This document shows, in pieces, positions 29,787 through 39,520 of a stretch of DNA of 39,520 nt; within the stretch, counting starts at the first letter, position 1; every line of letters starts with the position of its first letter. This DNA is from Tannerella sp. Lineage in GTDB: Bacteria; Bacteroidota; Bacteroidia; Bacteroidales; Tannerellaceae. The position numbers and the translations under genes are program-made. The stretch covers positions 1 to 39,520 of the forward strand of contig NZ_JAUMYS010000024.1 of the NCBI RefSeq assembly GCF_030528505.1. Direction: 5' to 3'. The notes under the pieces are model-generated. The model saw only the letters and a program-made list of their open reading frames with translations. It did no database searches and was not told the origin of the DNA.

Positions 29787-30584
29787 ATTCAGAAACTTGA
29801 AAGATAACATTTGCGTGACAACATATAAAACAGATATGACGGCATGTATTTTACTAGCTTAAACAACTAAGAAAGATATCTGAATAGCACGTTTGATTGA
29901 TGTCCACTATGCAGAATTACTAATAACTCTACATGATATTTCAAAAAATATAATCTATCATAAAACAAGGTACGCCCCCCTCTTAAACACAAATTCCGCA
30001 ACAGAACAAATTGAAGTAGTAACCCTGAGGGTCTTTACATGTTGATTTGTTTGATTATTGGCTGAATGCTGAAACCCGAACGCCAATTAACAATTGACAA
30101 TGAATATTACGTCAGGCTTTCAGCCCTCCAAACAAGGCTTGGGCATCAACGCTCCCCACCCTCGCGGGATGGGACTGAAATACATCGGGCTTTCAGCCCT
30201 TGTAAGCCATTCGGGCCTTTATTTGTTTAAATGTTTGCTAACTGAACAACTATTGGACCATTGACAATTCAAAGAAAGCCCCGAAGGGGCGCGTTAATTC
30301 AGCCCAATGCGTAGCGTTGGGAGAAAACAGCAATCACCCCAAAGAGGGCTGTAAGCCTGAATTAAATTAATTGTTAATGGTTAATGAACAATGGTTATGC
30401 ATGGTACACGCCGAATCATATACCCGAAAATAACCATTAACAATTAACTTCTCGTTTTTCGTTCTTCGTTTTTCACTTTCCCATAACCATTAACAGCTGA
30501 CAATTAACAATTAAAAAACTTTTCTTCTTCGGCCGCATGCACGTTAAAATATGAATATTCAACCGAAAACTACGGGATATTCCC
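29787..30584. other. Repeat-rich non-coding stretch with several small hairpins
   Basis: No supported gene. The left 200 bp are A+T-rich and featureless. From about 30080 the text changes to modules also common between genes in Bacteroidota: GGGCT-TTC-AGCCC (30187-30199), GCCCC-GAA-GGGGC (30278-30290), CCCAATGC-GTA-GCGTTGGG (30303-30321), and repeated TTAACAATT/ATTGTTAA and TTTTTCACTTT runs. These are REP-like hairpin units of unknown origin. The right end carries the promoter of the DUF4827 gene. Confidence 0.6.
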
Positions 30585-30592
30585 TACATTTG
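30585..30592 (+). promoter_or_regulatory. Putative -7 promoter element for the DUF4827 gene
   Basis: TACATTTG, matching TAnnTTTG, 22 bp before the chosen ATG at 30615. It supports that start over the earlier in-frame ATG at 30594, which would lie about at the transcription start. Confidence 0.55.
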
Positions 30593-30614
30593 CATGCAAT
30601 TTTCAGAAAAAAGG

Positions 30615-31190
30615 ATGAAAACGAAGATTTTTATGGCAATGCTTCTTCTGGTCTCGGTTTGTCTTTCGTCGTGCGACAAGGACAGGATTTCGTATCCGAA
30701 GATGAAGAAGGAACAGAAAAAAGCAATCGAACAGTTTATCAGCAGTCAAGGGATTGAGGTGCTGCGCAAATACCCGGCCAACGGCGTATTTGGCGAAAAA
30801 CAGTTTTACCTCACCGAAGAAGGCATATATATCCATGTCGTCGATTCGGGCAACGGCCAGCGTGCGCAATTCCGGAAAACCGAAGTACTTATGCGATTCA
30901 GCGTCCGGAATTTCTTCAAAAAAGACACGACACGCGCTGACTTTTTTGCCAACGAATCCGTGCCGTTCGAGTTTACGTACGGACGTGCCGATGTAGTTCT
31001 GCATCAACACAAGGAGAACACAAGAAGTGCTTACTATTATTATTTCAGCACAAGTCTTGAAGCCGCATTGAGATACGTCGGCGATGGTTCGACCGTGAGA
31101 ATGATTATTCCGTTCGAAGTGGGAAGCGAAGACCAGGTAAAGAGAGGCATTCCGCTCTATTACGAAAAAGTAACGTTCCGTTTCTATTGA
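30615..31190 (+). CDS. DUF4827 family lipoprotein
   Basis: The start at 30615 gives 191 residues with a clear lipoprotein signal: MKTKIFMAMLLLVSVCLSSC with the Cys at about residue 20. The mature part has the FKBP-like fold marks of DUF4827: an N-terminal helix (KKEQKKAIEQFISSQGIEVL), then a beta-rich part ending with GIPLYYEKVTFRFY. DUF4827 proteins are Bacteroidota lipoproteins whose peptidyl-prolyl isomerase activity is unproven. It runs tail-to-tail with the DHH phosphoesterase gene, with only 4 bp between the stop codons, a pairing I recall from other Bacteroidales genomes. Confidence 0.8.
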   Translation: MKTKIFMAMLLLVSVCLSSCDKDRISYPKMKKEQKKAIEQFISSQGIEVLRKYPANGVFGEKQFYLTEEGIYIHVVDSGNGQRAQFRKTEVLMRFSVRNFFKKDTTRADFFANESVPFEFTYGRADVVLHQHKENTRSAYYYYFSTSLEAALRYVGDGSTVRMIIPFEVGSEDQVKRGIPLYYEKVTFRFY

Positions 31191-31194
31191 TCCC

Positions 31195-32238
31195 TTATCG
31201 GGGGCTGTCGGCAAAGATCGCCGGATTCAACTCCGCCAATCCGCGTTCGAACGTCCGGACAGCCTCTTCGAGCGTGCCGTAATATTCGCCGCCCGAAGCG
31301 TTTTTATGTCCGCCCCCGCCGAAGTGGTTTGCGGCAAAACGATTGCACGGAAAATCGCCGACAGAGCGTAACGAGATTTTGATCTGGTCGCTGTCTTCGC
31401 GGATAAACACCGAAAATTCGATTCCGTCGATGCTCAACGGCATGTTCACGAACCCTTCCGTATCGCCCGTAACGTACGCGTAGCGCTTCAGTTCCTCCAA
31501 CGACAACGTGATCAGCGCCGTTCTCAACTCCGGATACACCTTCATTTTCTCGTTCATCGTATAGCCCATCAGACGCATCCGCGACTCGGAATAGACCTGA
31601 TACACCTTACGGTAAATTTCGTCCTTGTCAATCCCCTTTTTGATCAGCTCGCTGACCACGGCATAAATATCGGCCCGGTTCGAGTTGTACGTAAAAGCCC
31701 CCGTATCGGTCATCATGCCCGTGTAGAGGCATTCGGCCGCCTCCTTATTGATATCGTCGTACGATTTGATGGCGCAAAGCAACCGGAACACCAGTTCGCT
31801 CGTCGACGACATGATCGGATACGAAATCACCAGACGACAGAAGTCGCCCGGATTCGGATGATGGTCGATCATCACCTTACGCCCCTCGGCCGCTTCGATA
31901 AAAGGCGCCAGCTTGCCGGCGCGTTTTGGCTCGTTGTAATCCATATTGAACAACACATCGGCTTCGCGTATCAACTGCTGAGCGTACTCCGGATAACGGT
32001 CGTAAACAAGAATATCGTCCGTGCCCGGCATCCACTTGAGAAAGTCGGGAAACTCGTTCGGCGCAATCACACTGACCCGCTCTTTCCCGATCTCCGTCAG
32101 GAAGTGATACATTCCCAGCGACGCACCGATGGCATCGCCGTCGGGCGAGACATGAGCCATCAATACAAACCGTTCAGCCTTGTCAATATAATTTCGGAAG
32201 CGTTGCACTTGAGCTTCATCCAACATTTTCGTAAGCAT
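31195..32238 (-). CDS. DHH/DHHA1 phosphoesterase, NrnA-like
   Basis: I take the ATG at 32238 (347 residues); the reading that starts at 32292 would begin upstream of the promoter element at 32263-32270. The DHH domain shows AHVSPDGDAIGASLGMY (about 26-42), FNMDYNEPKRAG (about 96), MIDHHPNPGDF (about 122) and TDTGAFTYNSNRA (about 180). The DHHA1 domain ends with HFGGGGHKNASGGEY (about 308). These are all the metal- and substrate-binding motifs of NrnA-type enzymes, which degrade short oligonucleotides (and pAp) from the 5' end, and may also cleave pApA from cyclic di-AMP. Soluble, cytoplasmic. Confidence 0.92.
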   Translation of the reverse strand: MLTKMLDEAQVQRFRNYIDKAERFVLMAHVSPDGDAIGASLGMYHFLTEIGKERVSVIAPNEFPDFLKWMPGTDDILVYDRYPEYAQQLIREADVLFNMDYNEPKRAGKLAPFIEAAEGRKVMIDHHPNPGDFCRLVISYPIMSSTSELVFRLLCAIKSYDDINKEAAECLYTGMMTDTGAFTYNSNRADIYAVVSELIKKGIDKDEIYRKVYQVYSESRMRLMGYTMNEKMKVYPELRTALITLSLEELKRYAYVTGDTEGFVNMPLSIDGIEFSVFIREDSDQIKISLRSVGDFPCNRFAANHFGGGGHKNASGGEYYGTLEEAVRTFERGLAELNPAIFADSPR

Positions 32239-32262
32239 AATCTTTTCTTGTTTTAGTACCGC

Positions 32263-32270
32263 CAAAGATA
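32263..32270 (-). promoter_or_regulatory. Putative -7 promoter element for the DHH phosphoesterase gene
   Basis: TATCTTTG on the minus strand, 25 bp upstream of the ATG at 32238 and just after the end of the chromate transporter gene. It suggests the phosphoesterase is transcribed separately from the transporter pair. Confidence 0.55.
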
Positions 32271-32281
32271 CAATAAATTTG

Positions 32282-32815
32282 TTAAAACACAAGGTAGCCC
32301 GTCAGTCCCGCGAGTATAATCAGCCGGATGATGCCCATTTTGAAGAAATAAGCGAGTACAAACGTAGACAACGCGATCAGCACGCTACGATAGTCTACGA
32401 AATTATGCTCGTTCATCAGCAGTAGTGCCGCGGCGGCAATCAGCCCGATGGCTGCCGGCTTCATCCACAGCAATGCCCCGCTGACATACGGGTTGTCTTT
32501 GAATTTCATAAAAAAGCGACTGATAAGCACCATGATCAGGATGGCCGGCAAACAGACGGCCGACGTCGCGATCAACGAACCGACGATGCTCCCTCCCGTC
32601 GCCGTATAACCGATGTACGTGGCACTGTTGATGATAATCGGGCCGGGCGTCATCTGTGAGATGGCGACGATGTCGGTAAACTCGCCCATCGTAAGCCATC
32701 CGTGCGCCTCCACCACTTCATACTGCACCATCGACAGCATGGCGTACCCTCCACCGAAACCGAACAGCCCGATTTTAAAAAACGTGAGAAACAACTGAAG
32801 ATAAATATCCATCAT
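32282..32815 (-). CDS. Chromate transporter half-protein (ChrA family), second of a pair
   Basis: From the ATG at 32815 the protein has 177 residues and about five hydrophobic segments. The ChrA motif FFKIGLFGFGGGYAMLSMV is at about residues 10-28, followed by WLTMGEFTDIVAISQMTPGPIIINSATYIGY (about 40-70), the family's signature. The start overlaps the stop of the first half gene by 4 bp (ATGA). Bacteroidota often encode the two ChrA halves as separate small proteins that are thought to form a heterodimer. The ion moved (chromate, or another oxyanion) is not proven by sequence. Confidence 0.88.
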   Translation of the reverse strand: MMDIYLQLFLTFFKIGLFGFGGGYAMLSMVQYEVVEAHGWLTMGEFTDIVAISQMTPGPIIINSATYIGYTATGGSIVGSLIATSAVCLPAILIMVLISRFFMKFKDNPYVSGALLWMKPAAIGLIAAAALLLMNEHNFVDYRSVLIALSTFVLAYFFKMGIIRLIILAGLTGYLVF

Positions 32816-33366
32816 GTTTTGGCAATAAAGGTATGATAAACCACCCCGACAACGCCCGAGAGCGCCATCACCCATATCGGCGAAACGGAGAATCCCCACA
32901 CGGCAACGGCCGAGAGCAGCGCAATCGTAACAATCCCCCACTTCAAACCGCTTTTCTTGAGCATATTCACGACAGGTACGGCAATCAACGCCACAACCGC
33001 CGGACGAATCCCGCAGAAGACACGTTCAACGACAGGGTTTGTACGGATGTCGGCAAAAAAGAAAGCGATCAGCAAGATCGTAACGAACGAAGGGATAGCC
33101 GTTCCCAAGACCGTCGCAATCAGTCCGCCGTAGCCTTTCGTCTTGTAACCGACAAAAACGGCCGCGTTAATCGAAATCGGTCCGGGCGACGATTGCGCCA
33201 ATGTAAGCATCTCGGCAAACTCCTCCTGCCCGATCCACCGGCGACGTTCGACCACCTCTTTCTCGATGAGCGGAATCATCACATACCCTCCGCCAATCGT
33301 GAACGCCCCGATCTTCAAAAACGAACTGAACAATGCCCAGTAATGCTTTAGCTCCGTTTGAATCAT
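32812..33366 (-). CDS. Chromate transporter half-protein (ChrA family), first of a pair
   Basis: Encodes 184 residues with FLKIGAFTIGGGYVMIPLIEKEVV (about 15-38) and the signature FAEMLTLAQSSPGPISINAAVFVGY (about 48-72). Five or so membrane segments. It shares these motifs with the second half protein, showing common ancestry, and is translationally coupled to it. No clear promoter element was found in the 120 bp ahead of it, which it shares with the divergent DUF5686 gene. Confidence 0.88.
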   Translation of the reverse strand: MIQTELKHYWALFSSFLKIGAFTIGGGYVMIPLIEKEVVERRRWIGQEEFAEMLTLAQSSPGPISINAAVFVGYKTKGYGGLIATVLGTAIPSFVTILLIAFFFADIRTNPVVERVFCGIRPAVVALIAVPVVNMLKKSGLKWGIVTIALLSAVAVWGFSVSPIWVMALSGVVGVVYHTFIAKT

Positions 33367-33442
33367 GTGCGAATGTAAACATAATTAAGGTATAATCATG
33401 CAAATTTCACACATTAAAAAAACGATATCCCGGAAAATTATC

Positions 33443-33450
33443 TACCTTTG
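33443..33450 (+). promoter_or_regulatory. Putative -7 promoter element for the DUF5686 gene
   Basis: TACCTTTG, identical to the tRNA -7 element, 40 bp before the ATG at 33490. It rules out an in-frame TTG at 33448, which overlaps it, as the start. Confidence 0.6.
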
Positions 33451-33489
33451 CGCCTCAAAATCCAACAAATAAACGGATTAAACACAGTG

Positions 33490-36078
33490 ATGAAGAAAAC
33501 GATACGATATATACTTTTCCTTGTATTTACCTTATCCGGCGTTGGGCTGAACATGATGCAGGCCCAGCAAGTCACCTCCGTCTCGGGGATTGTGCGCGAC
33601 TCGATTACGGGCGAAACGTTGCCCTACGTCTCGATGATTTTCGAAGGCTCTTCCATCGGAGGCATCACCGACCTCGACGGAAACTTTAACCTGCAAAACA
33701 ATCAGGGACTGACCAGCCTGTCCATCTCATACGTAGGCTACACGACGAAAGTCATTCGCCTGAAAGCCGGACAGAAGAACGAGGGCGTCGAAGTGCTACT
33801 CGCCCCCTCGACGATTCAGATTTCCGAAATCATCGTCAAGCCTAAGCGCGAAAAGTATAGCCGGAAGAATAACCCCGCCGTCGAGCTGATGAAAAAGGTA
33901 GTTGCGCGCAAAGACAGCAACCGCATCACGCAACTCGACGAATATCAGACCGAGTGCTACGAGAAGATGACCCTTTCGTTAGACAAGTTCGATACCGATT
34001 TCGAGAAGAACAAACTGATGAAAAAGTTTAAGTTCATCAAAAATTACCTCGACTCGTCCGAGATTGACGGCAAGCCGATTCTGACGCTCTCGCTGCGCGA
34101 GAAAATCTCCGACATCTATTACCGGAAAAGTCCGAAGACGGAGAAAATCATCGTCAAAGCGCAACGGCAGCAGGGTGTAGACCAGACACTCGACGAATAC
34201 GGTACGATCTCGGCTAACCTCGAAGAAATCCTCAAAGGGATCGATGTCTTCGACAACAATATCCCGTTTCTGCTTAACCGCTTCGTCAGTCCACTCTCGT
34301 CTACGCTGGCCAATGCCTACTACCAGTATTATATCATGGATACGCTCGACGTGGGCGGCGAACAGTGCGTCGATCTGGCTTTCGTGCCGGTCAACCCGCA
34401 AAGTTACGGATTTACGGGACGGCTCTACATCACGCTCGACGGTACGTATGCCGTCAAAAAAGTACGTCTGAACGTCCCTCGCCATATCAACCTGAATTAC
34501 GTAAAAGATTTGCGTATCGATCAGGAATTTAAACGACGCGACGACGGGTTGTGGGAGCTGGATAAGGATAATACGTACGTTGTTTTCTACTTCATCGACG
34601 GCGGACAGCAGATTTATGCGCATCAGCTGCGCAGTTATTCCGAGTTCCGCTCGCCCGTGGCCAACGGCGACTCGATCTTCAGCCTCTTAGGCAAAGTGCA
34701 TACGCCGCTGGCAAGGCATCTGGCACGCCCCGACTCCTTTTGGGTGAATAATCGCCACATCCCGCTGAAAGAAAAAGAGAATGCCATCGAGCATCTGCTT
34801 GATCAGTTGAGAGCAGTACCCGTATTCAACGTTTTTCTTAAAACGGTCGAAATCCTGATCTCAGGCTATATCCCGATTAACAATGAACACACGAAGAATA
34901 AGCTCGATTTCGGCCCGATGAACACGACATTCAGTTCGAACGTGGTCGAAGGCTTTCGCATTCGTGCCGGAGCGATGACGACGGCTAACCTTCACCCGCA
35001 TCTGTTCTTCGGAGGCTACGCGGCTTATGGTATGAACGACCGCAAATGGAAATACAGCGGACAGGTGACGTACAGCTTCAACGAAAAAGAATATCACGAA
35101 AAGGAATCGCCCGTCAATAACCTGTCTTTCCTGCACGAATACGATCTGTACACGCCGGGACAGGATTTCCTTTTTACGAGCAAGGATAATGTGTTTGTAG
35201 CTTGGAAAGTAGGCAAAGCCAACCATCACATGAACTACTTGCGCAAAACGCGCCTGCAATACGAAAAAGAATGGCTCAACGGATTGAGCATCAGAACATG
35301 GATGCAGCACCAGAATAGCGAAGCGACAGGTTCGCTGCGGTATATTCTTCACAAGGACGACGATATCTACCTCCGTCTGAGAGACATCACCACGGTAGAA
35401 TGGGGTGCTCAGTTGCGTTTTGCCCCGGGCGAACGGGCATACAACAGTCGTCTCGGAAAAAGCTCGGCGTTAAATCTGTCGAAAGATGCTCCGGTCTTCA
35501 AACTGTCGCACCAAATCGGATTCAATGGCTTGCTCGGAGGAGAATACCGTTACAACCGGACCGAGGCAAGCGTAAGCAAACGTATCTGGCTGTCGTCGTT
35601 CGGACATATCGACGCCAACCTGAAAGGCGGAAAAGTATGGAACGAAGTGCCGTTCCCGCTGCTCATCATGCCAAATACGAACCAGGCCATTACCATTCAG
35701 CCCGAGGCCTTTCACCTGATGAATCCCATGGAATTTCTGGCCGATCAATACGTCTCGTTCGAGGCCTCTTATCATCTGAAAGGATGGATTCTGAACCGTA
35801 TCCCCCTTATCAACCTCTTGCAACTGCGTGAGGTGGCTTCTATCAGCGGTGTCTGGGGCAGCCTGAGCGACAAAAACAATCCGGAAAAACGTTATGGACT
35901 ATTCGTCTTCCCCGAAGGCTCGCAAGCGTTCGGCAGCAAGCCATATCTGGAATTCAGCGTCGGACTGGAAAACATTTTGCGCGTCCTGCAAATCAATTAT
36001 TACCGTCGACTGAGCTACCTCGACCATCCGGATATCCAAAAGCACGGAATCCGCATCGCCATGCGCTTCTCGTTCTGA
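33490..36078 (+). CDS. DUF5686 outer-membrane protein with carboxypeptidase-regulatory-like domain
   Basis: Starting at 33490 the protein has 862 residues with a signal peptide (MKKTIRYILFLVFTLSGVG, cleavage near QAQQ). Residues about 30-115 form a carboxypeptidase-D regulatory-like beta-sandwich (VSGIVRDSITGETLPYVSM, ITDLDGNFNL, SYVGYTTKVI), as in TonB-dependent receptors. The remainder is the DUF5686 region, about 700 residues ending in a beta-barrel (repeated amphipathic strands; last residues GIRIAMRFSF with a terminal Phe). It is not a TonB receptor, as no plug domain is seen. Function unknown; an outer-membrane role is likely. Its promoter region is shared with the divergent chromate transporter genes. 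Confidence 0.85.
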   Translation: MKKTIRYILFLVFTLSGVGLNMMQAQQVTSVSGIVRDSITGETLPYVSMIFEGSSIGGITDLDGNFNLQNNQGLTSLSISYVGYTTKVIRLKAGQKNEGVEVLLAPSTIQISEIIVKPKREKYSRKNNPAVELMKKVVARKDSNRITQLDEYQTECYEKMTLSLDKFDTDFEKNKLMKKFKFIKNYLDSSEIDGKPILTLSLREKISDIYYRKSPKTEKIIVKAQRQQGVDQTLDEYGTISANLEEILKGIDVFDNNIPFLLNRFVSPLSSTLANAYYQYYIMDTLDVGGEQCVDLAFVPVNPQSYGFTGRLYITLDGTYAVKKVRLNVPRHINLNYVKDLRIDQEFKRRDDGLWELDKDNTYVVFYFIDGGQQIYAHQLRSYSEFRSPVANGDSIFSLLGKVHTPLARHLARPDSFWVNNRHIPLKEKENAIEHLLDQLRAVPVFNVFLKTVEILISGYIPINNEHTKNKLDFGPMNTTFSSNVVEGFRIRAGAMTTANLHPHLFFGGYAAYGMNDRKWKYSGQVTYSFNEKEYHEKESPVNNLSFLHEYDLYTPGQDFLFTSKDNVFVAWKVGKANHHMNYLRKTRLQYEKEWLNGLSIRTWMQHQNSEATGSLRYILHKDDDIYLRLRDITTVEWGAQLRFAPGERAYNSRLGKSSALNLSKDAPVFKLSHQIGFNGLLGGEYRYNRTEASVSKRIWLSSFGHIDANLKGGKVWNEVPFPLLIMPNTNQAITIQPEAFHLMNPMEFLADQYVSFEASYHLKGWILNRIPLINLLQLREVASISGVWGSLSDKNNPEKRYGLFVFPEGSQAFGSKPYLEFSVGLENILRVLQINYYRRLSYLDHPDIQKHGIRIAMRFSF

Positions 36079-36174
36079 CAGGTTGTGTATCCTTGCCATA
36101 ATATGATGCGTATATATCGTGCTAAAAAACACGAAGATTCCGAATCAAACGCAAACGGATTGCCGATAACAGTC

Positions 36175-36199
36175 AACTTGTGAGTGGCACTCACAAGTT
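36175..36199. other. Near-perfect palindrome between DUF5686 and GNAT genes
   Basis: AACTTGTGAGTG (36175-36186) and CACTCACAAGTT (36188-36199) are perfectly complementary around one central base. As RNA it would form a 10-bp stem with a 5-nt loop. There is no T run, so it may be an operator or processing signal rather than a simple terminator. It lies 35 bp before the GNAT start. Confidence 0.7.
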
Positions 36200-36234
36200 C
36201 AAGAATTCTTCATTACCGATAGACAAAACACGCG

Positions 36235-36708
36235 ATGAATTACAGAATCAGAAAAATCGAAGAGCACGAACAAGCCTTGCTGAAGGACTTCCTTTATGAA
36301 GCGATTTTCATCCCCGAAGGAGTAACGCCGCCCGACAGGTCGATTATCGAGCATCCCGACCTGCAAATCTATGTTCGCAACTTCGGTGCGTACGACCACG
36401 ACCACGCACTGCTTGCTGAAGTAAACGGAACGGTCGTAGGTGCCGTATGGGTGCGTATCATGAACGATTACGGCCACGTCGACGACCAGACTCCCTCCCT
36501 CTCCATATCGCTTTATACGGAATACAGAAACCGAGGAATCGGGACGGCGATGATGCAGGAAATGCTTCGCTACCTCAAAGAAAAAGGCTACAAGCGCATC
36601 TCCCTTTCCGTGCAGAAAGCAAATTACGCGGCAAGATGGTACCAACAATTGGGCTTCACCGTCGTAAAAGAAAACAGCGAGGATTACGTCATGCTAAAAG
36701 AATGGTAA
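36235..36708 (+). CDS. GNAT family N-acetyltransferase
   Basis: The 157-residue protein has the GNAT fold. Motif A, the acetyl-CoA pyrophosphate loop, reads YRNRGIGTAMMQEML (about residues 98-112); the preceding strand is PSLSISLYTE; motif B is ARWYQQLGFTVVKE (about 134-147). The N-terminal part (YRIRKIEEHEQALLKDFL) is a short substrate region. Target unknown; such stand-alone GNATs modify small molecules, antibiotics or proteins. The palindrome at 36175-36199 lies in its leader. Confidence 0.9.
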   Translation: MNYRIRKIEEHEQALLKDFLYEAIFIPEGVTPPDRSIIEHPDLQIYVRNFGAYDHDHALLAEVNGTVVGAVWVRIMNDYGHVDDQTPSLSISLYTEYRNRGIGTAMMQEMLRYLKEKGYKRISLSVQKANYAARWYQQLGFTVVKENSEDYVMLKEW

Positions 36709-36774
36709 GTACGATTGCTTAGAGGCAAGCAGTATCAACAGACTGCTTCGGTATCTCTTCTTGTGCCCCTTTCG

Positions 36775-36960
36775 GTTGAAAATAATGGGTCTTTGTTGAT
36801 CTGCTGCAAGCCGTACAGAAAATTCGCCCAAAATACCCATTTGTTCGGACATGTTCACGTAAGTTATGGCATAGAAAAATCGAAATACACAACATTTGTC
36901 AATGCCTCTCTTGTGAGAAAAAATAAAATGGTGGCTAAACCGTTTTTGCTGGAAATATGA
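36775..36960 (+). pseudogene. 3' remnant of a metallophosphoesterase (calcineurin-like) gene
   Basis: An in-frame stretch that ends at the TGA of 36958-36960 reads like the C-terminus of a small calcineurin-type phosphoesterase: HLFGHVHVSYGIEKSKYTTF, with the GHVH metal-binding motif, then VNASLVRKNKMVAKPFLLEI (compare the usual FVNASxL...V.KPIxFEL ending). All upstream motifs (D-x-H, GDxxD, GNHE) are missing, and the GNAT gene ends 70 bp before. It is therefore a truncated relic; the small ORF starting at 36715 is probably not a real gene. Its right end is about 115 bp from the integrase gene, so the integron may have arrived near this breakpoint. Confidence 0.7.
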
Positions 36961-37074
36961 AATACGCAAAGTTCCAAACCGTTAACAAGTAAACTTATCT
37001 AAGCAGAACCTCCTCTTTCAGCCTCACCGTTGCGAGAAGATAATTCAATGTGTATAAACTTAAATGCCTGATAG

Positions 37075-37917
37075 TCACAAAAACTCCAAAGGACTTTTAA
37101 TTTTTGATTTGGAAATATCGGTTATATGCGTGTAAATCTCTGTCGTTTTGACGGATGAATGCCCCAATAATTGCTGAATGTACCTGATATCAGTGCCGTT
37201 TTCAAGTAAATGGGTGGCAAAACTGTGTCGCAATATATGTGGCGTTACCTGTTTTTTGATTCCGGCTCTCACAGCTGCATCTTTCACCACATTTTGCACG
37301 CTTTTTTCGGAACACAGTCCACCTCCTTGTCCCTCTATCAGATAATCTTTGGGTTTATATTTAAAGAAATACTCCCTCAAATCTTGTAATAATTGATAAG
37401 AAAGCATAACAACCCTGTCTTTGTTTCCTTTTGAATTTCTAATATGAACAACCATATTGCCGGAATCTATATCTATAATTCTCAGGTTTAATAACTCACT
37501 CAAACGTAACCCACACCCATACAGAAGTTTAATAATACACTTGTGCTTTTGACTGGTTGTTGAATCAATCATTCTCTTCACTTCATTCATGCTTAAGCAC
37601 TTCGGCAATGCGTGTGTTTTGCGGGAAGGGTACAGATGTTTCAGATTCAGATTCACACCAACCACCAATTGGTAAAACTTATCTATTGATGCCACTATCA
37701 TCTTTTGATAAGAATGGCTTACTGCGTGCTTATTTATTTTCCAAAACACATATTTTTCTATTTCAGCTACACCAAGCTCATCTGGATTGATAAATTTTTT
37801 TTCGGCAATTTGCAGAAAGTTTTTTACTGCACTTTTGTAGTTGAAAATAGAGTTTTTACTATATCTTTGAAGTATCAACTTCCTTTCATAATCGGCTAAT
37901 AATATTTCAATTTGCAT
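37075..37917 (-). CDS. Tyrosine recombinase, candidate integron integrase (Xer-like)
   Basis: Encodes 280 residues. An N-terminal SAM-like core-binding domain (about 1-95: YSKNSIFNYKSAVKNFL) precedes the catalytic domain with all active residues: Arg138 (YGCGLRLSELLNL), Lys163 (NSKGNKDR), His227-x-x-Arg230 (HILRHSFATHLLENG), His253 (LLGHSS) and Tyr262 (TTEIYTHI). Classical IntI proteins have about 105 residues between the catalytic Lys and the HxxR His, because of an extra patch that binds attC; here there are 64, similar to XerD. The C-terminus (KIKSPLEFL) is of a kind I associate with Bacteroidota recombinases. Divergence from the cassette array, its own promoter and the attC-like site downstream make an integron integrase likely; XerC/XerD or ICE integrase is less likely, as no dif site or conjugation genes are seen. 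Confidence 0.85.
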   Translation of the reverse strand: MQIEILLADYERKLILQRYSKNSIFNYKSAVKNFLQIAEKKFINPDELGVAEIEKYVFWKINKHAVSHSYQKMIVASIDKFYQLVVGVNLNLKHLYPSRKTHALPKCLSMNEVKRMIDSTTSQKHKCIIKLLYGCGLRLSELLNLRIIDIDSGNMVVHIRNSKGNKDRVVMLSYQLLQDLREYFFKYKPKDYLIEGQGGGLCSEKSVQNVVKDAAVRAGIKKQVTPHILRHSFATHLLENGTDIRYIQQLLGHSSVKTTEIYTHITDISKSKIKSPLEFL

Positions 37918-37934
37918 AGTATTTTGTTTTTTTG

Positions 37935-37964
37935 CAAATTTAGCAAAACATTCGCAAATACAAA
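37935..37964 (-). promoter_or_regulatory. Promoter of the integrase gene
   Basis: On the minus strand TTTG (37964-37961) is followed by 18 bp and TAAATTTG (37942-37935), a good match to TTTG-N19-TAnnTTTG. The start of transcription would be near 37928, about 11 nt before the integrase ATG. It corresponds to the Pint of classical integrons. Confidence 0.65.
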
Positions 37965-38045
37965 TATTTTTTTAGTCAGATTTTCTGATTTATTAAATTG
38001 ATTTATTGACATATATCCCGTCTTTGAAGAATTAGACATAAAATG

Positions 38046-38085
38046 ATATACGAATGTTATAAGTTTAACATATACGAATGTTGTA
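38046..38085. repeat. Pair of 16-bp direct repeats in the attI-like region
   Basis: ATATACGAATGTTRTA occurs at 38046-38061 and 38070-38085, with one difference and a 24-bp spacing (about two helical turns). In classical integrons attI has direct repeats (DR1, DR2) bound by the integrase next to the recombination point; these lie 20-60 bp left of the GTTAGGG at 38107. They could instead be operators for a repressor. The second overlaps the outward promoter. Confidence 0.7.
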
Positions 38086-38091
38086 TATTTG
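38084..38091 (+). promoter_or_regulatory. Outward promoter for the cassette array (Pc-like)
   Basis: TATATTTG on the plus strand, matching TAnnTTTG, 16 bp left of the putative recombination point and 45 bp before the first cassette's ATG. It would transcribe the first cassettes. The -33 region has only a weak GTTT match. It overlaps the second 16-bp repeat, so integrase binding there could block it. Confidence 0.55.
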
Positions 38092-38106
38092 TTACGTAAA
38101 TAATAC

Positions 38107-38113
38107 GTTAGGG
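38107..38113 (+). other. attI/cassette junction, recombination point G^TTAGGG
   Basis: GTTAGGG at 38107-38113 fits the GTTRRRY core of integron recombination sites at six of seven positions. The first cassette would begin at T38108. The ten bases 38107-38116 are the exact complement of 38978-38987, the R box of the attC site that ends the same cassette; this is the hallmark of a cassette opened from a circle at that point. Confidence 0.7.
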
Positions 38114-38135
38114 CACATTATAAAAGACACAACAT

Positions 38136-38969
38136 ATGGAACCATTATCAATTATAGCAATAGGAGCAGCTGTCGGTGGAGCAGCTGGGAAATTTGTTGA
38201 AAAAGCTTGGGAATCAGGAGAAAAGTGGATACAGTCATACTTTAAAGACCATAAAGAAGTTGCTCAACAAAAGGCAACAGATAATACTATGGATTTTTTA
38301 AAAGAGTTAGCTCAAAAAGTCAAACAACTTGAAGACTCAAAACAGATTTCACAAGAAAAGATTGAATCAGCTCAAGACCATCCTGATTTTTCTGCGATGC
38401 TACAAAAAGCATTATTGACATCCGCACAAACTGATAATAAAGACAAGCATATTATTTTAGCCAGACTTGTTTCAGAAAGACTTAAATCAGAACCAGAATC
38501 AATACTTGCTCTTGGTTCAAAAATGGCTTGTGATGCTATTTCATATGCTACTGTTAATCAATTAATTATATTAGGATTAGCAGTAAACTTTTATGGAATT
38601 AGACCAAATCCTTTCCCACCATTAGGAGTAAATGAAACCAATTATCAATCGTGGATGGATAATTGGTTAATGATTAGATTAAAGCCTTACCAAACAATAA
38701 AATTTAGAGAAATAGATGTAACTCACCTTGAATCAATTTCATGTCTTAAAGTAAATACTTTTATAGGTCGTGAATTAAATGAAATGTTTCAAAAAGACAA
38801 TTTAATCTATGATTTTGAAAAGATGAGAGACATTCCATTAAGAGATTCAATGAAAAAGATTTGGGAAGGACTTCAAAAGATTGATTTGACAACAGTTGGA
38901 CAGATAATTGGAGTTTCTGTATCTGATTTGTTGACGAGAACAAATACAACATTTGATGGCTGGGATTAA
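38136..38969 (+). CDS. Cassette 1 protein of unknown function
   Basis: The 277-residue protein opens with a glycine- and alanine-rich hydrophobic segment (IIAIGAAVGGAAGKFV, about 5-20) that may lie in or on a membrane, then a charged coiled-coil-like stretch with Gln and Lys (about 30-80: LKELAQKVKQLEDSKQ). The conserved-looking middle is IILARLVSERLKSEPESILALGSKMACDAI (about 108-137). The C-terminal half is mixed with a ...KKIWEGLQKIDLTTVGQIIGVSVSDLL end. It faintly recalls the 'LPO_1073/Vpar_1526' family of unknown role; I cannot confirm this. No catalytic motif is recognised. As a first cassette behind a strong-looking promoter it is probably expressed; a defence role is plausible but unproven. 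Confidence 0.75.
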   Translation: MEPLSIIAIGAAVGGAAGKFVEKAWESGEKWIQSYFKDHKEVAQQKATDNTMDFLKELAQKVKQLEDSKQISQEKIESAQDHPDFSAMLQKALLTSAQTDNKDKHIILARLVSERLKSEPESILALGSKMACDAISYATVNQLIILGLAVNFYGIRPNPFPPLGVNETNYQSWMDNWLMIRLKPYQTIKFREIDVTHLESISCLKVNTFIGRELNEMFQKDNLIYDFEKMRDIPLRDSMKKIWEGLQKIDLTTVGQIIGVSVSDLLTRTNTTFDGWD

Positions 38970-38977
38970 AAAATAAC

Positions 38978-39106
38978 GTGCCCTAACATCATGTATAAAA
39001 AATTTGGGGATTTAGTGCTTACTTGAAACATTCTGCCCCGCATCAGCTTTTGTAACGGTTGACAGTGACGAGCCCGCAAACCCCAAACATTTCATACAAT
39101 TTACCG
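38978..39106 (+). other. attC-like recombination site of cassette 1
   Basis: It starts 8 bp after the stop codon of the cassette 1 ORF. The R box GTGCCCTAAC (38978-38987) pairs with G39106 plus 38108-38116 of the circular cassette. A spacer of 4 and 7 unpaired bases follows (38988-38991; 39099-39105). The L box pairs TGTAT (38992-38996) with ATACA (39094-39098) and TTTGGGG (39003-39009) with CCCCAAA (39081-39087), with an even 6-base spacing between them on both strands. One extrahelical A (39010) is followed by TTT/AAA. About 64 bases (39014-39077) form the variable terminal part. Total about 138 bp, inside the known attC range. Confidence 0.72.
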
Positions 39107-39161
39107 TTAGCTGCAACTTTAAAGCCAAACAGAAACATTACTAAACAAAATGTAAAGAATA

Positions 39162-39503
39162 ATGAGCAGACCATTTAGAATTTTATCCCTTAGTGGAGGA
39201 GGAATTAGAGGGATTTTTCAAGCCTCTTTTTTAGAAAAAATTGGGAATGAACTTGAACAACCAATTCACAAAAACTTTGACTTAATCTGTGGTACTTCAA
39301 CTGGTGCAATTGTAGGACTTGCTGCTGCAAATGGAATAGACTTAAAATTAATCAGCAACCTTTACAAAGAAAAAGGTGGATTGATATTTAAAAAGAATTT
39401 ATTCGCAGGAATACAACAAGGACCAATTTATAATCAAGCGGTTCTAAAAAATGAATTAGTTAAAGTCATTGCTGTCCCATTAAAATCTAAAATAGTTCTT
39501 TGA
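39162..39503 (+). CDS. Cassette 2: patatin-like phospholipase, truncated
   Basis: The 113-residue reading begins RILSLSGGGIRGIFQASFLE, with the oxyanion-hole GGGxRG, and has the nucleophile elbow GTSTGAIVGLAAA (Ser about residue 47). This is the N-terminal half of a patatin lipase, close to the CapV type used as an effector in CBASS antiphage systems. The protein stops at a TGA (39501-39503) before the region that should hold the catalytic Asp of the Ser-Asp dyad (DGG/DGA motif), so it is either frameshifted, truncated or damaged. Other frames after about 39470 also meet stops soon. It is the first gene of cassette 2, 55 bp after its left edge; the rest lies beyond the window. Confidence 0.8.
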   Translation: MSRPFRILSLSGGGIRGIFQASFLEKIGNELEQPIHKNFDLICGTSTGAIVGLAAANGIDLKLISNLYKEKGGLIFKKNLFAGIQQGPIYNQAVLKNELVKVIAVPLKSKIVL

Positions 39504-39520
39504 AATATTTGAAATTTAGT

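Follow-up and report, generated by a model that had tools for sequence, protein, structure and literature searches.

Gene content of the locus

The DNA analyzed here (the window) is a whole contig of 39,520 nt, C83 (NZ_JAUMYS010000024.1), from a Tannerella sp. of the class Bacteroidia whose genome (GCF_030528505.1) comprises 2.9 Mb in 113 contigs. At its right end, a tyrosine recombinase gene lies divergent from an attI-like recombination region, a complete gene cassette with its attC site, and the beginning of a second cassette (Table 1). A preliminary description had read this arrangement as an integron with an Xer-like integrase, and our analysis supports that reading: all of the elements are present, and a second attC-like site in the genome, unlike cassettes in a relative, and attC sites beside related integrases were all found. 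Judged from its sequence, the window very probably carries a chromosomal integron that belongs to a lineage with integrases devoid of the I2 helix. Of the sequence marks of integrons that we tested, all appear to be present except I2, the one that defines the integrase; the locus would be an integron by architecture and falls outside that group by this one feature. The novelty is the integrase without I2, not the architecture.

Table 1. Features assigned at the right end of the window, with the evidence for each
Feature	Position	Strand	Evidence
Tyrosine recombinase, integron-type integrase without the IntI-specific I2 insertion, 280 amino acids (aa)	37075..37917	-	Profile matches, invariant residues, I2 spacing and motif test
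attI-like recombination region between integrase and first cassette, ~190 bp	37918..38106	.	Similarity to T. forsythia OH1426
TAAATTTG, candidate -7 box of integrase promoter	37935..37942	-	TAnnTTTG pattern scan
Inverted copy of ACGAATGTT repeat near integrase start, candidate integrase-binding site	37947..37959	-	Repeat search
attI direct repeat 1	38046..38066	+	Repeat search
attI direct repeat 2	38070..38090	+	Repeat search
TATATTTG, candidate -7 box of cassette promoter	38084..38091	+	TAnnTTTG pattern scan
Predicted GTT insertion point (G^TT) of attI x attC	38107..38109	+	Similarity to T. forsythia OH1426 (L005) ends here, except GTTA common to both cassettes
Gene cassette 1, 999 bp	38108..39106	+	Own-end complementarity GTTAGGGCAC/GTGCCCTAAC, 10/10
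Cassette 1 open reading frame, LPO_1073/Vpar_1526 family protein, 277 aa	38136..38969	+	NF045477, 195 bits (cut-off 45)
attC of cassette 1, R'' to R'	38978..39115	+	R1 covariance model, 41.5 bits, E 3e-7
Gene cassette 2, cut by contig end	39107..39520	+	Begins at R' GTTAGCTGCA
Patatin-like / CBASS-type phospholipase, N-terminal 113 aa only	39162..39503	+	PF01734, 61 bits

The complementary ends of cassette 1 run from 38107 (GTTAGGGCAC) and up to 38987 (GTGCCCTAAC), and match at all 10 positions. Its attC contains an imperfect palindrome (38992-39019 / 39071-39098), and the next junction, GTTAGCTGCA, lies at 39106. The truncated protein of cassette 2 scored 98.7 bits against NF041079, below the cut-off of 200, and 115 bits against a PADLOC phospholipase effector. 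The candidate boxes of the integrase promoter (Pint) and the cassette promoter (Pc) were chosen by the pattern TAnnTTTG, which we take to be the -7 consensus of Bacteroidota. The string TATATTTG recurs in the attI regions of some relatives, and a motif like the inverted ACGAATGTT copy is also found upstream of the integrases of several of them. Rfam gave no match in the region, and a BLASTN search of the own genome with the window attC returned only the query; a covariance model was needed for further sites. By family search, the eight open reading frames (ORFs) checked to the left of the integrase fall into ordinary chromosomal families, among them GNAT, DUF5686, chromate transporter, and DHH; none of the eight matched a conjugation or phage family.

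An integrase without I2

The integrase had been described as departing from the classical IntI form, and this was borne out. Against NF040815 it scored 236 bits, above the curated cut-off of 220; NCBI describes this model as a site-specific tyrosine recombinase/integron integrase, which is a label and not a tested function. Against the integron integrase model TIGR02249 it scored 230.9 bits, below the curated cut-off of 265, with the match split into two pieces. Five residues that we take to be catalytic (R138, H227, R230, H253, and Y262) are invariant across 23 integrase rows. The LPxALxxKY motif and the I2 insertion of about 40 residues were both present in 17/17 canonical IntI rows, and neither was found in any of the 29 rows of clade A (window included), which, like clade B, is a group of the first recombinase tree. 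The spacing from the KDR to the HxLRH motif is 61 residues in the window integrase versus 102-103 in IntI. In three integrases outside clade A (L041, L083, and L087), this spacing is 61-62 residues at the later motif match and 128 from the earlier one. I2 is likewise missing from clade B, a second group among the class-wide matches that has a longer N-terminus, and from all 17 integrases of the later loci L173-L189, whose assignment rests on length and score only. The protein set leaves out L025, L029, and L057, which have in-frame stops.

Placing the integrase in a tree with IntI and Xer, as had been recommended, succeeded in part. The Bacteroidota rows fell on one side with support of 98/95; this dropped to 80/66 once seven rows, most of them long-branched, were removed, and a firm position relative to IntI was not reached. 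The tree was built without IntI_L126, L130, L139, L142, and L143 (wrong frame) and without three mis-picked Xer rows, two of which were replaced. A fold comparison placed Xer, XerA, and IntI4 among the nearest structures and excludes none of them. The window integrase is one of four PF00589 proteins in its genome.

Three side observations concern other integrases. A Sinorhizobium integrase without I2 (L124 2947-3816) lies beside an IS91 transposase and grouped weakly with IntI (80/24, first tree). Some integrases of 300-316 aa have an attC-like site of 200 nt directly upstream (L157 8281-8481; L184 4612-4810 and 8655-8854). On L157, an IS91-family transposase follows such a site and integrase, possibly forming a mobile integrase unit.

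The same locus in Tannerella forsythia

The closest named relative found for the window genome is Tannerella forsythia OH1426, whose integrase is 95% identical. Window positions 30079-38129 align to the OH1426 locus (L005) at 92% over 8 kb of flank and integrase, and the similarity breaks at GTT. The 150 nt to the left of the junction are 98% identical in the two genomes, versus 12% in a forced alignment of the next 150 nt. This is the pattern predicted if attI is conserved together with its integrase and cassettes are inserted at G^TT.

The opposite end of L005 aligns at 96% to positions 1514-1775 of another contig of the window genome, C78. The common far flank begins at GTTGGGTGCA (C78 from 1518; L005 from 257 downward). 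In both genomes the far end of the array reads CCGTTGGGTGCAAGCTA followed by the shared flank, and the attC sites that precede it are unlike. C83 and C78 would then be parts of one array, an order that we infer from this alignment. Between the two flanks, no further similarity was found between the array parts of the window genome and L005. The window genome encodes the LPO_1073-family protein and the patatin/CBASS-type phospholipase fragment, and its contig C78 adds a NUDIX protein; L005 encodes, among other proteins, an AAA_5 ATPase and one that weakly matches NERD. The expectation that cassette content would differ beside a conserved integrase thus held for these two Tannerella species, which have unlike cassettes at one locus.

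Just past the last attC on C78 lies a relic of an IS1595/ISXO2-like transposase (L100 1642-2196). This element is multicopy in Tannerella genomes, and its start is also present in L005.

Covariation in attC sites

Candidate seed sites were selected by cassette-end complementarity in Chryseobacterium, Epilithonimonas, and Fermentimonas loci, and 15 of the 18 were used to train a covariance model, R1. In a plain MAFFT alignment of the seed sites, double compensatory changes occurred at 13 of 16 pairs, and the covariation score was 0.468 versus 0.128 in shuffles (0/500 as high) and 0.04-0.10 in slid controls. A covariance-model search had been recommended, and R1, although trained on other genera, recovered the window attC among 70 scanned sources with R'' and R' correctly placed. 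It also found a stronger site in the same genome, at the start of contig C78 (1387-1527; 63.7 bits), which supplies the further attC-like site that had been anticipated. A weak match of 29.7 bits lies elsewhere in this genome, on contig C2 (L101 3819-3957). At E <= 0.001, R1 matched none of 12 genomes or records from outside Bacteroidota, one of them a plasmid with a class 1 integron; the model is therefore specific to sites of the present kind and could overlook classical attC as well.

We then aligned 138 distinct attC sites to the model, and the resulting alignment leans toward R1. Column 33 is A in 136/138 sites, and column 269, opposite to it, is C in 116/138, each column being counted separately. 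An A facing a C is mismatched on the top strand, whereas on the bottom strand the two positions form a G-T pair. Insert columns in the attC arms are each filled in at most 15 of the 138 sites, again in an alignment fitted to the model. This pattern suggests that attC sites would be used as hairpins of the bottom strand that lack the extrahelical bases docked by I2 in IntI.

The same system could instead recombine attC and attI as double-stranded core sites in the manner of Xer, with hairpin folding incidental. The absence of I2 would suit this, as would the archaeal Xer/XerA proteins that are the nearest solved folds and an attI core that, by eye, resembles an ordinary inverted-box site. We regard it as unlikely, since compensatory covariation in the attC arms and the A/C columns that mismatch on top and pair as G-T on the bottom (in the model-fitted alignment) both speak for folding.

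Cassette arrays beside related integrases

The prediction that relatives of the integrase adjoin cassettes was supported. Of the 24 clade-A loci that include 1 kb or more upstream of the integrase, 18 had a divergent R1 match there. Divergent arrays were present at all four clade-A-like loci (L186-L189) and at 4 of the 11 loci with integrases of clade-B length (L173-L183); L190 lay outside the attC search. At L180, L181, and L182, the integrases, of clade-B length, are oriented toward the array, opposite to the usual arrangement.

The cassette set comprised 63 intervals between consecutive attC sites at 22 loci, four of them plasmid records, with R1 matches picked by hand at E up to 3.4e-5. 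Single-site loci and intervals above 6 kb are excluded, and some intervals probably conceal missed attC sites (e.g., L005 258-6224). The longest ORF followed the array direction in 56 of the 61 cassettes with an ORF of at least 50 aa. Median cassette length was 1,056 bp, and the ORF began at a median of 46 bp past the junction. Cassettes matched their own ends at 8.1/10 positions versus 5.7 when ends were shuffled between cassettes (maximum of 2,000 shuffles, 6.2). Their content was varied: 47 Pfam families were spread over 50 proteins, the commonest occurring in two, and PADLOC matches included TmtA, AriA, and GajB, in both cases among the matches listed.

Similar gene-collecting devices appear to be common in relatives. 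Class-wide, such an integrase was found in 149 of 295 genomes (E <= 1e-60) and attC in 195 (R1 E <= 1e-6). Both were present in 131 genomes and neither in 82 (odds ratio, 9.3; P = 5e-16, with related genomes that are not independent draws). At most 11 candidates were scored per genome, which makes the attC numbers per genome lower bounds. Chryseobacterium sp. Leaf394 had 37 R1 matches at E <= 1e-4, and within the family of a Chryseobacterium genome such an integrase occurred in 107 of 197 genomes.

The preliminary description had also called integrons hardly described in Bacteroidota. Canonical IntI are not rare across the phylum: of 395 genomes sampled from it, 105 have one that exceeds the TIGR02249 cut-off. 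Only one genome listed for the class of the window was above the cut-off, in a sample for which the same-class total is not shown.

Resistance genes as cassettes on plasmids

The Flagellimonas plasmid NZ_CP092416 carries a clade-A-like integrase, an erm(F) cassette whose gene runs against the array direction, and a DHFR-family cassette. The erm(F) and DHFR-family intervals lie between attC-type sites (L122 5926-6633 and 6634-7923). The erm(F) cassette has an identical GTT start after six different left contexts in seven records, one of which (L013, a contig of a Dysgonamonadaceae metagenome-assembled genome) covers only the first ~120 nt. Its other end directly precedes a GTT in each of four different right contexts (6 records), and full or partial matches to it occur in 17 plasmid records. 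Two small plasmids carry the erm(F) cassette at a GTT that has no annotated integrase in its vicinity (L158 2829-2968; L161 1949-2088), perhaps through secondary-site insertion.

On Sphingobacterium, Myroides, and Riemerella plasmids, genes located between R1 attC sites include tet(X2) (L159), ere(D) with estT (L160), and blaMYO-1 (L157). The same plasmid group has blaOXA-347 between such sites, with 998/998 bases identical in L157 and L159. In Acinetobacter indicus, a single attC lies between tet(X5) and estT. The loci behind these plasmid observations are L157, L159, L160, and L162. If these genes move as cassettes of an I2-less integron, a single mechanism would account for the way in which resistance genes such as tet(X) and erm(F) spread one by one in Bacteroidota.

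A related integrase stands beside an IS91-family transposase on some records, and clusters of tetX-catB11-IS91-XerD have been described (PMC11194056; here and below, papers are cited for the portions of their text that were accessible). The repeats might instead be parts of IS91/HUH-type transposons, elements that mobilize genes as rolling circles, with the integrase as a helper. This seems hardly credible to us: no IS91-family transposase gene lies between the window integrase and its array or among its eight left neighbors, the stretch that was scanned, and single-gene cassettes that end at GTT with complementary ends are unpredicted for rolling-circle ends.

In Riemerella anatipestifer, homology-independent insertion of aph(3')-IVb has been reported, with a fixed 27-bp 5' end and a 140-bp attC-like 3' end (PMC13148043, 2026). 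In the accessible text, that paper leaves the mechanism unresolved and the recombinase unnamed. We would tentatively link this capture to the family of I2-less integrases. A locus with an integrase of clade-B length, L174, was considered as the relE/cdf insertion site of that paper, which was not supported: it has no attC and no RelE or cation transporter, and Pfam matches on eight neighbors are to SSB, acyl-CoA dehydrogenase, and CoA transferase.

Proposed mechanism and points against it

In the mechanism we propose, Pint would drive the integrase, which would bind the attI repeats between its own gene and the array. It would then recombine duplex attI with hairpin-folded attC, most likely the bottom strand, at G^TT. 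Captured cassettes would land next to Pc in attI and be expressed, and recombination between attC sites would excise or reshuffle them. What the sequences themselves show is the architecture, a conserved attI next to unlike cassettes, attC sites of conserved structure, GTT cassette ends that recur in different contexts, and the lack of I2. The role of the window integrase rather than some other enzyme, the strand used, an avoidance of second-strand exchange without I2, and the promoters are presumed.

Several observations weigh against this reading. For the window by itself, the evidence for an integron is no more than suggestive, because a 10-nt end match of the cassette 1 type also arose in 19 of 500 dinucleotide shuffles of 37918-39520 and the attC fold is not exceptional. 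The window attC folds no better than shuffled sequences (z = 0.13 for the top strand, -0.51 for the bottom strand, and 0.31 for a longer stretch), and the fold z of other attC sites spans about 0 to -5.3. The independent evidence from R1 and from the break of similarity with T. forsythia OH1426 at GTT is, by contrast, strong. Contigs C83 and C78 do not overlap. Six of the 24 clade-A loci (L012, L014, L015, L017, L021, and L024) had no R1 match in at least 1 kb of upstream sequence, which slightly lowers our confidence both in the integron reading and in the two-form reading given below. Among L173-L183, three arrays lay downstream in the same direction, one single site was otherwise placed, and three loci had no attC. 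Across the class, attC occurred without the integrase (E <= 1e-60) in 64 of 295 genomes, and the integrase without attC in 18. Finally, I2 has been termed necessary for cassette capture by IntI and absent from any other protein (PMC7790495), so that another enzyme or mechanism might be at work.

Some of these points fit an alternative in which a canonical IntI from outside builds and shuffles the arrays and the XerA-like recombinase is a bystander with some other job. The genomes with attC and no such integrase, the six clade-A loci devoid of attC, and the canonical IntI present elsewhere in the phylum would all be understandable on these terms. We nevertheless consider it quite improbable. 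A single same-class genome was over the IntI cut-off in the phylum sample. The own genome has four PF00589 proteins and no TIGR02249 match at E <= 1e-40, yet has attC sites. Moreover, integrase and attC are associated across genomes, and attC sites lie directly upstream of most clade-A integrases.

Implications of a probable I2-less integron

The results also permit a broader and more tentative reading, for and against which the case is close to balanced. Integrons would exist in two forms, IntI and I2-less. The latter, found in about half of the sampled Bacteroidia genomes, would either keep the state that preceded I2 or have separately invented hairpin-cassette capture. It would be the native carrier of Bacteroidota resistance genes, tet(X), erm(F), and blaOXA-347 among them, and its enzymes would account for homology-independent capture in Riemerella. 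The I2 helix is regarded as the innovation that made integrons possible, and a lack of intermediates has been noted (eLife 2020, PMC7790495). A working integron without I2, if true, would make this evolutionary step directly testable.

An I2-less integrase could also explain why standard searches have named few integrons in Bacteroidetes, since IntI is sought with PF00589 and an I2 profile (PMC9668308). Bacteroidota as a phylum is listed among integron carriers (PMC8618304, PMC2426708). According to the IntegronFinder 2.0 paper, only In0 had been found earlier in Bacteroidetes, and one complete integron was found in Bacteroidetes proper, in Salinibacter ruber (PMC9024848). The first version of that program found no integron in outbreak strains of Elizabethkingia (PMC5458099), and the taxon-specific attC models that have been published include none for Bacteroidota (PMC8352920), as far as the accessible text goes. 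In the literature covered, which leaves aside preprints and most subscription papers, we found no description of integrons with an I2-less integrase or of integrons in Bacteroidales or Flavobacteriales.

Comparison with known systems

The system shares with the IntI1 and IntI4 integrons a divergent integrase, attI repeats, a G^TT junction, R''/R' boxes, and long imperfect-palindrome attC sites. It also shares mostly single-ORF cassettes of ~1 kb, a cargo of resistance and defense genes, and plasmid-borne forms. It differs from them in lacking I2 (61 versus 102-103 residues), in an integrase that scores below the IntI family cut-off, and in attC arms that, in the model-fitted alignment, have no common one-sided extra base. 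Treponema-type integrons, in which we take the integrase to be inverted, compare with some of the integrases of clade-B length that point toward their array; the integrases described here differ in the absence of I2 and belong to another phylum. A reverse orientation is mentioned for integrons of Spirochaetota (PMC9668308). With XerC/XerD, XerA, and integrative mobile elements exploiting Xer (IMEX) such as CTXphi, for which hairpin recombination without I2 is known (PMC7790495), the window integrase shares protein length and fold. It differs from these systems in that it is accompanied by cassette arrays with attC rather than by single dif-type sites, in a genome that has three further PF00589 proteins.

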